From: an uncultured Verrucomicrobiota bacterium
GTDB lineage: Bacteria > Verrucomicrobiota > Kiritimatiellia > RFP12 > UBA1067
Direction of reading: 5' to 3'
Length of the DNA stretch: 37,165 bases
NCBI GenBank assembly: GCA_946623785.1
Contig: CAMORM010000011.1
Coordinates: 1-37,165 of the forward strand
Every line of letters starts with the position of its first letter. Position 1 is the stretch's first letter. The position numbers and the translations under genes were made by a program. The notes below the pieces were generated by a model. That model did no database searches and was not told where the DNA came from. It worked only from the letters and a program-made list of their open reading frames with translations. This document shows, piece by piece, positions 9,701-29,527 of the stretch.

Positions 9701-10633
9701 GCGTGGAGCGAGACCACATACCGCATGCAGGCGCTGCGCGACAATCCCGCCACGGCCAAGGAGGAGTACGACAACGGTCTCGACGACTCCGACCCCGGGC
9801 TGTCCTTCGCGCTCACCTACGATCCCGAGTCGCGTCCCGCGCGCGCATCGCGTTCGGCGAAGCCGCGCATGGCGATTCTGCGCGAGCAGGGGGTGAACGG
9901 ACACATCGAGATGGCCGCGGCGTTCGCGCTTGCAGGGTTCGAGAGCGTAGACGTCCACATGACGGACCTTCTTTCGGGACGCGTCGACCTCGCTGACTTC
10001 CAGGGCCTTGTGGCGTGCGGAGGATTCAGCTACGGCGACGTGCTGGGCGCAGGTTCCGGATGGGCGCGCTCGATCCTCTTCAACAAGAGGCTCAAGGCGA
10101 TGTTCCGCAAGTTCTTCCACAGGAAGGACACATTCTCGCTAGGAGTGTGCAACGGATGCCAGATGCTCTCGCAGCTCAAGGACCTCATTCCCGGCGCAGA
10201 GGACTGGCCCGAGTTCAAGCGTAACACGTCCGAGCAGTTCGAGGCGCGCTACTGCACGCTCGAGGTCCTCGACTCGCCGTCGATCTTCTTCAAGGGGATG
10301 GCTGGGAGTCGCATTCCGATCGCGGTGGCGCACGGAGAGGGCCGCGTGGTGTTCCCGGACGGTGCGGACGCATCGCGCGCCAAGGCGGCGCTGCGGTACG
10401 TCGACGGTCGCGGCAACCCCACGGAGCGCTATCCGTGGAACCCGAACGGCTCGGCGGGCGGCCTAACGTCGTTCACGACGCGCGACGGCCGCGCCACTAT
10501 CATGATGCCGCATCCGGAGCGCGGCTTCCGCGCGGTCCAGCTCAGCTACAACCCCGGAGTCTTCACGGGCGAGGCAGGGCCGTGGATGCGCATGTTCCGC
10601 AACGCGTACGCATTCGCCACCAAGGGGCGCTAG
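6740..10633 (+). CDS. purL: Phosphoribosylformylglycinamidine synthase, large single-chain form
   Basis: [43 protein letters not shown]-terminal glutaminase [18 protein letters not shown] and MPHPERGFR. Confidence 0.97.
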
Positions 10634-10762: not shown

Positions 10763-10773
10763 TTTGGTACAAT
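10763..10773 (+). promoter_or_regulatory. Putative proximal -10 (TTTGGTACAAT)
   Basis: Ends 7 nt before the leader-peptide ATG; same core as other -10 elements in the window. Confidence 0.5.
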
Positions 10774-10780
10774 AAGCGCA

Positions 10781-10855
10781 ATGAACAAGCAGTTTAGCCT
10801 TTACTTTGCGTGGTACTACGGGTCCGGGAGGACGCGGGGCGTCGGCGCTATTTGA
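10781..10855 (+). CDS. Aromatic-rich attenuation leader peptide MNKQFSLYFAWYYGSGRTRGVGAI
   Basis: 24 aa with F5, Y8, F9, W11, Y12, Y13 (6 aromatics in 9 residues), followed by competing antiterminator/terminator segments and pheA. Confidence 0.85.
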   Translation: MNKQFSLYFAWYYGSGRTRGVGAI

Positions 10856-10916
10856 AAGGCAACGACATAAAGAGCAAGCCAAGGCCCCGCGTCAAAAGGA
10901 ACGCGAGGCTTTTTTT
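10831..10916 (+). promoter_or_regulatory. Transcription attenuator: antiterminator segment 2 pairs with terminator 5' arm
   Basis: GACGCGGGGC (10831-10840) is the perfect reverse complement of GCCCCGCGTC (10884-10893), the 5' arm of the downstream terminator. Confidence 0.85.
10884..10916 (+). terminator. Intrinsic terminator within the attenuator
   Basis: GCCCCGCGT-CAAAAGGA-ACGCGAGGC (one C/A mismatch) followed by TTTTTTT (10910-10916). Confidence 0.88.
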
Positions 10917-10929
10917 ATGGGAGCGTCAG

Positions 10930-12096
10930 ATGGGAGAATGTGACAGAGAGGGCAACCTCAAGAAAGCGCGTGTCGAGATAGACCGCATCGACGAGGAGCT
11001 GGTGAAGCTCTTCCTCAAGCGGCTCGAAGTGTCGCGGGACGTTGCGCTGGCGAAGCGCGCCACGGGCGGTTCGATACTCGACCCGGCGCGGGAGCGCGAG
11101 ATTCTCACGCGCGTCTCCGAGGCGGCAGGCCCGGAGAACGAAAACGCGGCGCGTCTTTTCTTCTCGACGCTCTTCTCGATCTCCAAGGCGCGCCAGAGGA
11201 GCATCATCAAGGGCACTTCGCCCCTCGTGGAGGAGATCGAGGCCTCGCAGCGAAAGCACGTTGCGGGGCTTCCCTCGCGCGCGTTCGTGGCATGCTGCGG
11301 AACGGAGGGCTCTTACGCGCAGCAGGCCGTGTCGCGCCTAGTGAAGGTTCCCACGATTGTATACTTCAACGAGTTCGAGCGTGTCTTCGAGGCGGTGGAA
11401 AAGGGCCTATGCCCATATGGCGTGCTGCCGATCGAAAACTCCGCCGCGGGTTCGGTTACGGCCGTGTACGACCTCATGCAGAAGCATTCGTTCCACATCG
11501 TGAAGGCGCTTCGCCTGAAGGTGGACCACGTTCTTCTCGCAAACCCTGGGGTGAAGTTCGGCGACGTGAAAGAGGTCATGAGCCATCGCCACGCGCTTGC
11601 GCAGTGCAACAACTTCCTAAAGGCGAATTCGTCCATAAAGGCCACCCCGATGTCAAACACCGCCACGGCAGCGAAGGAACTCGCCGCTTCAGGGCGGCGC
11701 GACGCCGCGGTGATAGCGTCCCGCTCATGCGCGGAGCTTTACGGGCTCGAGGTCATCGCCGAGAAGATACAGGACGCCGCGTACAACTACACGCGCTTCA
11801 TCTGCATCTCGAAGGACCTGGAGGTCTATCCGGACGCCAACAAGATATCGATCATGCTGTCGCTGCCCCATCGCCCCGGAGCTCTTCAGGCGATCATATC
11901 GAAGTTCGCCGCGATCGACGTGAACCTCACGAAGCTCGAGTCTCGCCCAGTTCCGGGAATGGACTTCGAGTTCAGCTTCATATTCGACTTCGAGGCTTCG
12001 CCTTCGGACCCGTCGGTGCGGAGCCTTCTTTCCGAGATTTCGCAGGACCCCGAGATAGACCACTTCGGATTCCTCGGGGCGTACAGGGAGAAGTAG
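10930..12096 (+). CDS. pheA: Chorismate mutase/prephenate dehydratase (P-protein)
   Basis: N-terminal chorismate mutase (RIDEELVKLFLKRLEVSRDVALAKR), dehydratase (GTEGSYAQQAV, PIENSAAGSV), C-terminal ACT (PHRPGALQAIISKFAAIDVNLTKLESRP). Confidence 0.95.
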   Translation: MGECDREGNLKKARVEIDRIDEELVKLFLKRLEVSRDVALAKRATGGSILDPAREREILTRVSEAAGPENENAARLFFSTLFSISKARQRSIIKGTSPLVEEIEASQRKHVAGLPSRAFVACCGTEGSYAQQAVSRLVKVPTIVYFNEFERVFEAVEKGLCPYGVLPIENSAAGSVTAVYDLMQKHSFHIVKALRLKVDHVLLANPGVKFGDVKEVMSHRHALAQCNNFLKANSSIKATPMSNTATAAKELAASGRRDAAVIASRSCAELYGLEVIAEKIQDAAYNYTRFICISKDLEVYPDANKISIMLSLPHRPGALQAIISKFAAIDVNLTKLESRPVPGMDFEFSFIFDFEASPSDPSVRSLLSEISQDPEIDHFGFLGAYREK

Positions 12097-12100
12097 CGGC

Positions 12101-13207
12101 GTGACGAGAATCGAGCCAGGTGCGAGACGAGGGGAAATGCGGCTTCCGGTATCGAAGTCGCACGCCCACCGCGTGCTGATCGCGGAGTTCCTCGCGGGAC
12201 GGCTCGCCTCGCTTGCGCCGTCGGAGGCAGACTGCGACGACGTCGCCGCAACGAAGCGTTGCCTTGTCGCGCTCGCATCCGGGGCGTCTGCGCTTGATTG
12301 CGGTGAGTCGGGGACAACTCGCCGCCTGCTCGGCCCCGTTGCAGCGGCGCTTGGCATAAAGGCAGAATGGATCATGCGCGGTAGGCTCGCGTCGCGTCCT
12401 CAGATAGAATACCCCGAGATAGCGCCGGGAGTGCACGAGCTTCCCGGGGATGTCTCCTCGCAGTTCGTCAGCGGGCTCCTTTTCGCGCTTCCGGTTCTCC
12501 GCGGTGATTCGGAAATCGTCCTTACGTCTCCGCTCAAGTCGCGCGGCTACGTCGACATGACTCTTGGCGTGCTGCGCGAGTACGGGATTTCGGTCGCCGA
12601 GACGGGCCGCGGGTTCCGCGTGCCGGGGAGCCAGGGCTACACGGCCCCGGCTAAGGGGCCTCGCATCGAGGGCGACTGGTCTTCGGCCGCATTTGCCCTT
12701 GCGATGAACGCGCTTGGAAGCGAAGTCCAGTTCGCGGATGGGGGCGCAGCGTCGCTTCTGTCCGATTCGCTGCAGCCCGACCGCGCGGTTGTCCGCCTGC
12801 TCGATGTCCTTTCAGGCGAAGGCGAGAGGATGCTTGACGTCGACCAGTGCCCGGACCTGTTCCCGGTCATGGCCGTTGTGGCGGCGTGCAGGAAGGGAAG
12901 GACGGCCTTCGGCGGGACGCGCAGGCTGCGCCTCAAGGAGTCCGACAGGGTGGCGGCCATGGCGGATGTGCTTGGCAGGTTCGGAGTCCGCTGCTGCGCC
13001 GATGAGGACGGGTTCTCGGTCGACGCGAAGGGCGGGCCGCTCGCAGGCGGGGCTTTTTCGTCGTTTGCCGACCACCGCGTGGCGATGGCGGTGGCGGTTG
13101 GCGCAACGTGCGCCGGAACGCCCGTGGAGATCGACGACACGGCGTGCGCCGCGAAGTCGTACCCGACGTTCTTCGGGGATTTTGGGAGGTTGGTCGTTGG
13201 TAGTTAG
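12101..13207 (+). CDS. aroA: 3-phosphoshikimate 1-carboxyvinyltransferase (EPSP synthase)
   Basis: LPVSKSHAHRVLIAEFL, DCGESGTTRRLLGPVAAALG, RLRLKESDRVAAMADVLGRFG; GTG start 4 nt after pheA. Confidence 0.94.
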   Translation: MTRIEPGARRGEMRLPVSKSHAHRVLIAEFLAGRLASLAPSEADCDDVAATKRCLVALASGASALDCGESGTTRRLLGPVAAALGIKAEWIMRGRLASRPQIEYPEIAPGVHELPGDVSSQFVSGLLFALPVLRGDSEIVLTSPLKSRGYVDMTLGVLREYGISVAETGRGFRVPGSQGYTAPAKGPRIEGDWSSAAFALAMNALGSEVQFADGGAASLLSDSLQPDRAVVRLLDVLSGEGERMLDVDQCPDLFPVMAVVAACRKGRTAFGGTRRLRLKESDRVAAMADVLGRFGVRCCADEDGFSVDAKGGPLAGGAFSSFADHRVAMAVAVGATCAGTPVEIDDTACAAKSYPTFFGDFGRLVVGS

Positions 13208-13247: not shown

Positions 13248-14258
13248 ATGATAATAATACTGAAGAAAGGTACGAGTTCCGCGCAGGTCGAGAACCTGAA
13301 GGCGCTGCTCAAGTCCAAGAACATCACGCCCAACGTTTCCGAGGGCCAGCTAGAGACGGTCATCGGGTGCGTAGGCGACATCGCGCACATCGACCCGGGG
13401 CTCATCGAGGCGATGGACGGCGTGGAGAAGGTCCAGCGCATCCAGGAGCCGTACAAGGCCGCGAACAGGAAGTTCCACCCGGAGGACACGGTCGTAGACT
13501 GCTCCGGCGTGAAGATAGGCGGCGGCGCGTTTGCGGTGATAGCCGGGCCGTGCTCCGTAGAGAGCGAGGAGCAGCTTGTGGGGATTGCGCGCAGCGTTAA
13601 GGCCGCAGGCGCATCGATGCTGCGCGGCGGCGCGTTCAAGCCGCGCACCTCGCCTTATGCGTTCCAGGGGCTCGGCGCTGAGGGGCTCAGGCTTCTCGCG
13701 CTGGCCAAGAAGGAAACGGGCCTCCCGATCGTCACGGAGCTCATGGACTTCAGGGACATCGAGCTTTTCAACGACGTAGACGTAATCCAGATCGGCGCGC
13801 GCAACATGCAGAACTTCAACCTCCTCAAGGAGGTAGGGTCGTACACGAAAAAGCCGATTCTCCTCAAGCGCGGCATGTCGGCGACGCTGCAGGAGCTCCT
13901 TATGAGCGCCGAGTACATCATGGCGTCGGGCAACCCGAACGTCATCCTGTGCGAGCGCGGCATACGCACGTTCGAGACGGCTCTCCGGAATACGCTCGAC
14001 CTCGGGGTAGTTACGCTGCTCCACCGCCTTTCCCATCTGCCCGTTGTGGTTGATCCCTCGCACGCGACGGGCCATGCGTACATGGTAGACTCTGTTTCCG
14101 TGGCGGCGTCGGCCATTGGCGCCGACGGTCTGATCATCGAGGTGCACAACGACCCGCAGCACGCGAAGTGCGACGGCGCGCAGAGCCAGACGCCGGAGAT
14201 GTTCGCGTCGACAATGCGCCGCATCGCCCGGGTGCGCGAGGCCATATCGCAAGGATGA
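13248..14258 (+). CDS. aroF: 3-deoxy-7-phosphoheptulonate synthase, type I with N-terminal ferredoxin-like regulatory domain
   Basis: MIIILKKGTSSAQVENL...; FAVIAGPCSVESEEQLVGIA, GASMLRGGAFKPRTSPYAFQGLG, PVVVDPSHATG. Confidence 0.94.
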   Translation: MIIILKKGTSSAQVENLKALLKSKNITPNVSEGQLETVIGCVGDIAHIDPGLIEAMDGVEKVQRIQEPYKAANRKFHPEDTVVDCSGVKIGGGAFAVIAGPCSVESEEQLVGIARSVKAAGASMLRGGAFKPRTSPYAFQGLGAEGLRLLALAKKETGLPIVTELMDFRDIELFNDVDVIQIGARNMQNFNLLKEVGSYTKKPILLKRGMSATLQELLMSAEYIMASGNPNVILCERGIRTFETALRNTLDLGVVTLLHRLSHLPVVVDPSHATGHAYMVDSVSVAASAIGADGLIIEVHNDPQHAKCDGAQSQTPEMFASTMRRIARVREAISQG

Positions 14259-14265
14259 CAACGGC

Positions 14266-14940
14266 ATGAGAAACGCATCCATAACCGAGCTTGCCGGCGA
14301 CACGTGGTTTTTCCGCGGCATGTCGCGGGAAGAGATAGAGCGACTGCTTTTCCGTTTCAACGGCGTGAAGAAGTCGTACAGGAAGGGCGAACTGATTGTC
14401 CATGCCGGCATGCTGGCGACGCGGCTCATGATCGTGGTCTCAGGGCATCTCCACGTCTACCAGCGCGTAATGGACGACCGCGAGGTGCTTGTGCGCGAGA
14501 TCAAGAAGGGCACGGTCCTGGGGCTTTGGATGCTTAACAACACCGAGATCGAGAACTGGCCCGCGACCGTTGTGGTCGAGGAGCCGTGCGTGACGATTTC
14601 TCTCGACATGGCGCGCGTGCGCAGGTTCCTTGAGTCCGGGGATCCGGCGGTGTCCAAGATAGCGATAAACGTGGCGTGTCTACTTTCGCGGGAGCTTTTT
14701 TCGGTGTGGCGGAAGCTCTCGGTGCTGAGCGAGCAGAACCTCGTCGCCCGCATACACATGTACCTTTCCGAGCTGTACCACGAGTCCGGGGATTCCGCCG
14801 AGGTGTCGGTACCGTTCAACCGCGAGCAGATGGCCGAGTACTTCGGAGTAACCCGTCCGGCCCTCTCCCGCGCGCTCGGCCAGATGCGCGACCGCGGCCT
14901 GATTTCGTGGCGCAAGAACGTGTTCAAGCTGCGGTTCTGA
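14266..14940 (+). CDS. Crp/Fnr-family transcriptional regulator
   Basis: cNMP-binding-like beta-barrel plus HTH: REQMAEYFGVTRPALSRALGQMRDRGLISWRKN; starts 7 nt after aroF. Confidence 0.88.
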   Translation: MRNASITELAGDTWFFRGMSREEIERLLFRFNGVKKSYRKGELIVHAGMLATRLMIVVSGHLHVYQRVMDDREVLVREIKKGTVLGLWMLNNTEIENWPATVVVEEPCVTISLDMARVRRFLESGDPAVSKIAINVACLLSRELFSVWRKLSVLSEQNLVARIHMYLSELYHESGDSAEVSVPFNREQMAEYFGVTRPALSRALGQMRDRGLISWRKNVFKLRF

Positions 14941-29272: not shown

Positions 29273-29302
29273 AGTATTCGCCTTTGCGTGAGGTTTCAAC
29301 TA

Positions 29303-29444
29303 AAGCCGACGACCGCGTCTCCGGACTCAACCTCATCCTCGCTCCCGCCTTCTCGGGGAAATCCCCAATGGCATGTCGGGAGTCCGTCGGTTCCTACCGT
29401 TGCACGACAGTGTGGGTTCACCACTTCCGTTTGATTGTCGGCCT
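29303..29444 (-). ncRNA. Cobalamin (AdoCbl-type) riboswitch
   Basis: Minus strand ACGGAAGTGGTGAACCCACACTGTCGTGCAACGGTAGG...ATGCCATTGGGGATTTCCCCGAGAAGGCGGGAG...GATGAGGTTGAGTCCGGAGAC (B12 box AGTCCGGAGAC at 29317-29327); P1 AGGCCGAC/GTCGGCTT closes it (8 bp, one G-U). Confidence 0.9.
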
Positions 29445-29527
29445 GCACGTATGTTGAGTAGTATGGCTTGTGCTGTCCTGTCTCCGTTAGGTTTAGCGTT
29501 CTCTTCCTTGTTTTCGGAAGGCCGCGG

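Follow-up and report, generated by a model that had tools for sequence, protein, structure and literature searches.

The window analysed here is a stretch of 37,165 nucleotides (contig CAMORM010000011.1 of assembly GCA_946623785.1, from an uncultured Verrucomicrobiota bacterium), the source assembly being 2.79 Mb in size and 78% complete. Near its first third lies a run of aromatic amino acid biosynthesis genes preceded by a short open reading frame and a set of competing RNA segments, a configuration that an earlier sequence-only reading had proposed to be a complete ribosome-mediated attenuator with a mixed Phe/Tyr/Trp leader. Rechecking bore out all of its coordinates, from the leader ORF through the segments numbered 2 to 4 to the run of seven Ts, and the features are as follows.

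10765 to 10773, + strand: extended -10 element TGGTACAAT (TTTGGTACAAT from 10763), a promoter-like motif
10781 to 10855, + strand: leader peptide ORF MNKQFSLYFAWYYGSGRTRGVGAI, ending in a stop codon, with homologous leaders in relatives
10793 to 10819, + strand: sensing codons F5, Y8, F9, W11, Y12, and Y13
10831 to 10840, + strand: segment 2, GACGCGGGGC, the antiterminator 5' arm, overlapping leader codons Arg-Thr-Arg-Gly
10884 to 10893, + strand: segment 3, GCCCCGCGTC, partner of segment 2 in the antiterminator or of segment 4 in the terminator
10901 to 10909, + strand: segment 4, ACGCGAGGC, the terminator 3' arm
10910 to 10916, + strand: U7 tract of the intrinsic terminator
10930 to 12096, + strand: pheA, chorismate mutase-prephenate dehydratase, the first structural gene, with GGGAG shortly 5' of its ATG
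12101 to 13207, + strand: aroA, EPSP synthase, with a GTG start and an N-terminal part divergent from the family profile
13248 to 14258, + strand: DAHP synthase of the aroF/aroG type, the first enzyme of the shared pathway

The identities of the three downstream genes, given earlier as pheA-aroA-aroF, were confirmed, and the distances between them (4 nt between pheA and aroA, and 40 nt between aroA and the DAHP synthase gene) are compatible with one operon. By eye, the N-terminal part of the aroA product carries EPSPS-like motifs. We also considered whether aroA is a second, truncated EPSP synthase and rejected this, the sole other EPSP-synthase-family match in the genome reading as MurA by eye. 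A Crp-family regulator gene (14266 to 14940, + strand) begins 7 nt after the DAHP synthase gene and may belong to the operon; upstream lies a purL-type gene in the same orientation, ending at 10633. Elsewhere in the window there is a cobalamin riboswitch (Rfam RF00174, 50.7 bits, 29297 to 29467, - strand). The close pheA relatives come from uncultured gut and rumen genomes.

Six of the 24 leader residues are aromatic (two Phe, three Tyr, and one Trp), and Tyr-13 ends at 10819, 11 nt 5' of segment 2, in agreement with the spacing first reported. Segment 2 is the exact reverse complement of segment 3, giving the perfect 10-bp pairing claimed for it; the 2:3 duplex has a folding energy of -21.1 kcal/mol and beats 97% of its own shuffles (p=0.03). 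Segment 3 also pairs with segment 4 ahead of the U7 tract, as had been described, in a terminator hairpin (10881 to 10912) of -14.6 kcal/mol. Folding the whole leader to its minimum free energy was uninformative (z only -1.5) because alternative structures compete, and restricted folds were used instead. With 10831 to 10916 free, the RNA that would be exposed by a ribosome stalled at Trp-Tyr-Tyr, the 2:3 stem wins with a total of -34.0 kcal/mol; with only 10862 to 10916 free, as after passage of the ribosome, the terminator forms at -15.2 kcal/mol.

Two further claims of the sequence-only reading stood only in part. A 1:2 pairing between TTTGCGT and ACGCGGG exists on paper, with three G-U pairs; however, the best 1:2 duplex in the window does not outdo shuffled sequence (p=0.09), and the combined value over 23 relatives is p=0.05. 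The classical model has a 1:2 hairpin aiding termination, but we treat this as a common accessory and not as a requirement, since the ribosome here reads through segment 2. A ribosome at the stop codon had also been expected to mask segment 2, but the stop lies 13 nt beyond it, so a ribosome resting there masks its 3' half only; segment 2 is covered by a ribosome translating the Thr-Arg-Gly codons, passing rather than parked at the stop.

Such an arrangement rarely arises by chance. When the 296-nt intergenic stretch was put through 3,000 dinucleotide shuffles, 15 of these contained an ORF with six or more Phe, Tyr, or Trp codons, and none combined such an ORF with a terminator. A scan of the entire window on both strands returned one further, weaker match, in another region.

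The -10 element ends 7 nt 5' of the leader ATG, and there is no Shine-Dalgarno motif. With normal promoter geometry this spacing puts the mRNA start probably at the AUG or 1 nt before it, and the leader ORF is probably leaderless. The recognisable promoters of the homologous leaders all have an extended -10 (TGnTAnnnT), and the gap to the ATG is either 7 to 12 nt, without an SD-like motif, or about 18 to 29 nt, often with one. Genome-wide, TTTGGTAnnnT lies 6 to 9 nt before an ATG at 63 sites, compared with none for the reversed pattern and with 12 for gaps of 12 to 15 nt; within the window there are six TTTGGTAnnnT sites (4958, 10763, 29623, and 34023 on the + strand; 29528 and 33941 on the - strand) where 0.15 are expected. 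The 63 closely spaced sites suggest that leaderless mRNAs are widespread in this genome.

Looking for the leader and its competing stems in related genomes had been proposed as a check, and both recur across the window's family: about 40 distinct sequences have an aromatic leader ORF, segment 2, and a terminator ahead of DAHP synthase or pheA, whereas a scan of the opposite strand of 40 upstream regions gave one weak match. Where DAHP synthase is the first gene there are 28 distinct mixed-codon leaders, with Phe and Tyr in all and Trp in 22 (for example MNGTFKFAWYYYFGFTAGAARAC and MNQRYYFFAYVNFAFIPRGALLSY). Eleven distinct aromatic leaders lie directly upstream of pheA in the family, most pheA genes having no such leader; a terminator stem is visible by eye in all 11, and a strict detector missed four of them. 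The stems that this detector missed mostly have short U-tracts (L003, L175, L179, L199, and L192 among them) and were read by eye. In one relative (L134; genome G069, contig C143), pheA and DAHP synthase are separated by a gene that is no EPSP synthase and by eye resembles methylenetetrahydrofolate reductase.

The proposed alignment shows that the aromatic codons are conserved, as are the codons overlapping segment 2, with the remainder of the peptide poorly conserved. Across 23 aligned leaders the 3:4 stem covaries: 8 of its 11 pairs have changed on both sides, and its cells are 94.5% paired compared with 86.1% in shuffles, none of 500 shuffles scoring as high. The 2:3 stem is kept in 23/23 sequences, in varying register, with matched changes such as an A-T swap in L202 and a G/C variant in the window itself; its combined p value over 31 leaders is 4e-17, the sequences not being independent. 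The window's variant is a three-way matched change, in which a G in segment 3 takes the place of the T seen in others and is matched by a complementary C in segments 2 and 4 alike.

The suggestion that mixed codons fit a shared-pathway operon is backed by a correlation between codon content and operon content. Leaders of operons containing DAHP synthase have Phe and Tyr in 33/33 cases and Trp in 25/33, whereas those of pheA genes without a DAHP synthase on the same stretch have Phe in 6/6, at least two Tyr in 1/6, and Trp in 1/6, most of them being Phe-dominated. The two groups differ in having at least two Tyr (Fisher p=2e-4) and in the presence of Trp (p=0.011), with ancestry ignored. One relative (G082) has both kinds, with MNKYFDFRFFFFFASLA before pheA and MKANYFGYWFHFYFTP before DAHP synthase. 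There are exceptions: L003 and L034 lack Trp despite a DAHP synthase in the operon, and L105, a pheA leader without a DAHP synthase nearby, has Trp-Trp. An operon-label permutation over 76 leaders gave expected residues at 30% versus 16%, with 0/20,000 permutations reaching the observed match; like the other residue-operon statistics this takes no account of common descent, and we picked the operon classes, as well as several of the peptides, after inspection.

A covariance model built from the pheA and DAHP synthase leaders was run over 347 genomes of the class; matches outside the family that cover the terminator only (positions ~85 to 143) were not counted as attenuators. Full-length matches in relatives include Leu leaders before leuA and Trp leaders before trpE. 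The window's own genome has a Leu-codon leuA leader (L125, contig C24), the L-rich MNTNLLLNGLLLLALTGRGAGLLV, matched by the model at E=4e-12, and a Trp-codon trpE leader (L127, contig C47), MKNFVNNSNWWWRLASEAW, containing NWWWR, each with a terminator; this trpE gene was missed at E<=1e-30 on a 140-position domain and was found with a second family. A Tyr-rich leader and terminator (L270, MTYSPYAGKFYYYAFIQTRGCVVA) precede tyrA, the prephenate dehydrogenase gene, and Ile-rich leaders with a terminator (L258, L265, and L276) precede a gene with an MbcS-like acyl-CoA synthetase domain, where Ile is possibly made from 2-methylbutyrate. Two other families of the class likewise have mixed Phe/Tyr/Trp leaders before DAHP synthase (L268, with the enzyme confirmed by profile, and L255, with the enzyme read from its N-terminus). 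Two operons with the order leuB-DAHP synthase-pheA, taken from gene coordinates, have mixed Phe/Leu/Tyr leaders (L273 and L275; MKKTTQFLLFKGFFLAYKRRGV and MNQAEQFFLFEVYFLAYRRRGV), and one of these two genomes has the leuA leader MKKTFELLLLEGLLLAYKRRGV.

We conclude, with a probability of roughly 0.88 for the explanation as a whole, that 10765 to 10916 is a ribosome-mediated transcription attenuator governing the pheA-aroA-DAHP synthase operon. This reading is built on the elements themselves and their conservation, on covariation in the 3:4 stem and the persistence of the 2:3 stem, and on the way codons match genes across the genome family; where transcription starts, that the ribosome stalls, that transcription terminates, and that each of the three tRNAs elicits a response are predictions from the sequence. 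Transcription would start at or next to the AUG of the 24-codon leader, which ribosomes would therefore probably translate from a leaderless transcript. A shortage of charged tRNA-Phe, -Tyr, or -Trp would stall the ribosome within codons 5 to 13, and, with a standard value for the ribosome footprint, a ribosome stalled at any of the sensing codons should leave segment 2 free. Segment 2 could then pair with segment 3, blocking the terminator and allowing polymerase to read into pheA. With all three charged tRNAs plentiful, the ribosome would cross segment 2, segments 3 and 4 would pair, and transcription would stop near 10916, at the U-tract. One terminator would thus, by virtue of the mixed codons, respond to a shortage of any of the three shared-pathway products, and the codon content strongly suggests that all three tRNAs are sensed.

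An attenuator of this kind could work and nonetheless sense just one of the three amino acids, most likely Phe, with the Tyr and Trp codons as bystanders or weak contributors. Phe is the sole residue found in every pheA and DAHP synthase leader, and the Corynebacterium glutamicum aroR leader, with Phe-Tyr-Phe before aroF, responds to Phe and not to Tyr, as summarised in a review (PMC11802643). Nonetheless, the Tyr codons that are universal in leaders of DAHP synthase operons are sparse in the pheA-only ones, Trp is frequent in the former despite being a rare, single-codon residue, and the last three sensing codons in the window, those nearest segment 2, are Trp-Tyr-Tyr. Both operons found in which leuB leads DAHP synthase and pheA have mixed Phe/Leu leaders, which likewise argues against sensing of Phe alone, and we regard that as unlikely, if far from negligible.

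Departures from ribosome-mediated control fare worse. The leader might encode a functional small protein, the terminator merely separating transcripts, and some attenuator leader peptides do act in trans, such as Sinorhizobium peTrpL in the account given in part of PMC7298713; here, the weak conservation of the peptide beyond its aromatic residues and the segment 2 codons makes this very improbable. Switching between terminator and antiterminator is common to ribosome-mediated control, T-boxes, riboswitches, and protein-binding leaders, so the locus might instead be one of the latter three. No Rfam family scores above its gathering threshold at the locus, however, relaxed thresholds give chance-level matches only (E 5 to 8), and the conserved blocks are codons and stems with no aptamer-like conserved unpaired block, so that we give such leaders even less weight. 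Finally, the hairpin and T-run could be the terminator of the purL-type gene, which lies upstream on the same strand, with the short ORF there by chance. That we find scarcely credible given the shuffle results, the promoter-like element between that gene and the leader, and the recurrence of the ORF-terminator pair in dozens of relatives with codons matching the downstream gene.

As read from its sequence, then, the window locus is a genuine ribosome-mediated attenuator whose leader mixes aromatic codons, a new example of a textbook mechanism. We found no description of ribosome-mediated attenuation in the window's lineage in the literature searched, which is no proof of absence, and the locus extends this form of control to a lineage without such a description there. 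If the leaderless leader is real, it is also a case of attenuation without a Shine-Dalgarno site outside Actinobacteria. Among the relatives, leader codons and operon content vary together, and this natural series makes it directly testable whether a mixed leader senses each encoded amino acid or only one; the chimeric Phe/Leu/Tyr leaders of the leuB-DAHP synthase-pheA operons are a natural test of multi-amino-acid sensing. More broadly, we lean towards a view in which the Kiritimatiellae reuse one attenuator scaffold, often leaderless, as a modular control before DAHP synthase, pheA, tyrA, trpE, leuA, leuB, and an Ile-linked acyl-CoA synthetase gene. Each rearrangement of an operon would bring a re-matching of the codons, and leaders of operons that are fused or serve a shared pathway would thereby sense several amino acids at once (Phe, Tyr, and Trp, or Phe and Leu). 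Such reuse of a single scaffold, its codons adjusted to each new operon, would be a more interesting result than the single locus.

The Escherichia coli pheL and trpL leaders each sense a single amino acid and have a strong 1:2 hairpin and a ribosome binding site, whereas the window leader has codons for three amino acids, is probably leaderless, and has no convincing 1:2 stem. The E. coli thr (Thr and Ile) and ilvGMEDA (Ile, Val, and Leu) leaders have codons for several end products of their operons, and the window leader resembles them in serving several end products, with different amino acids and genes and with the comparison made by description only. It shares with pheL-pheA and trpL-trpE (Yanofsky, as outlined in PMC11802643) the end-product codons, mutually exclusive 2:3 and 3:4 stems, U-tract, and biosynthetic operon. 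In Streptomyces lividans, leader ORFs on leaderless transcripts precede trpE, leuA, and ilvB, with terminators in several; unlike the window this is a member of the Actinobacteria, and the part of PMC8079986 dealing with these leaders describes no aromatic mixed leader. According to reference 42 as quoted in PMC4046766, the C. glutamicum ilvBNC leader is also made without a ribosome binding site. The uORFC-13-1 motif before aroF in Acholeplasma, an unrelated lineage, has a candidate uORF described as having a ribosome binding site and one or more Phe codons, and like the window it places a uORF and a terminator before DAHP synthase (PMC8632094). The best-studied aromatic DAHP synthase leader found in the literature searched is that of the C. 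glutamicum aroR-aroF attenuator (Neshat et al. 2014, via the review PMC11802643). It differs in phylum, in its first gene, and in that no Trp codon is reported for it, and it shares with the window locus an aromatic-codon leader peptide placed before a DAHP synthase gene (PMC11802643; also PMC4046766).
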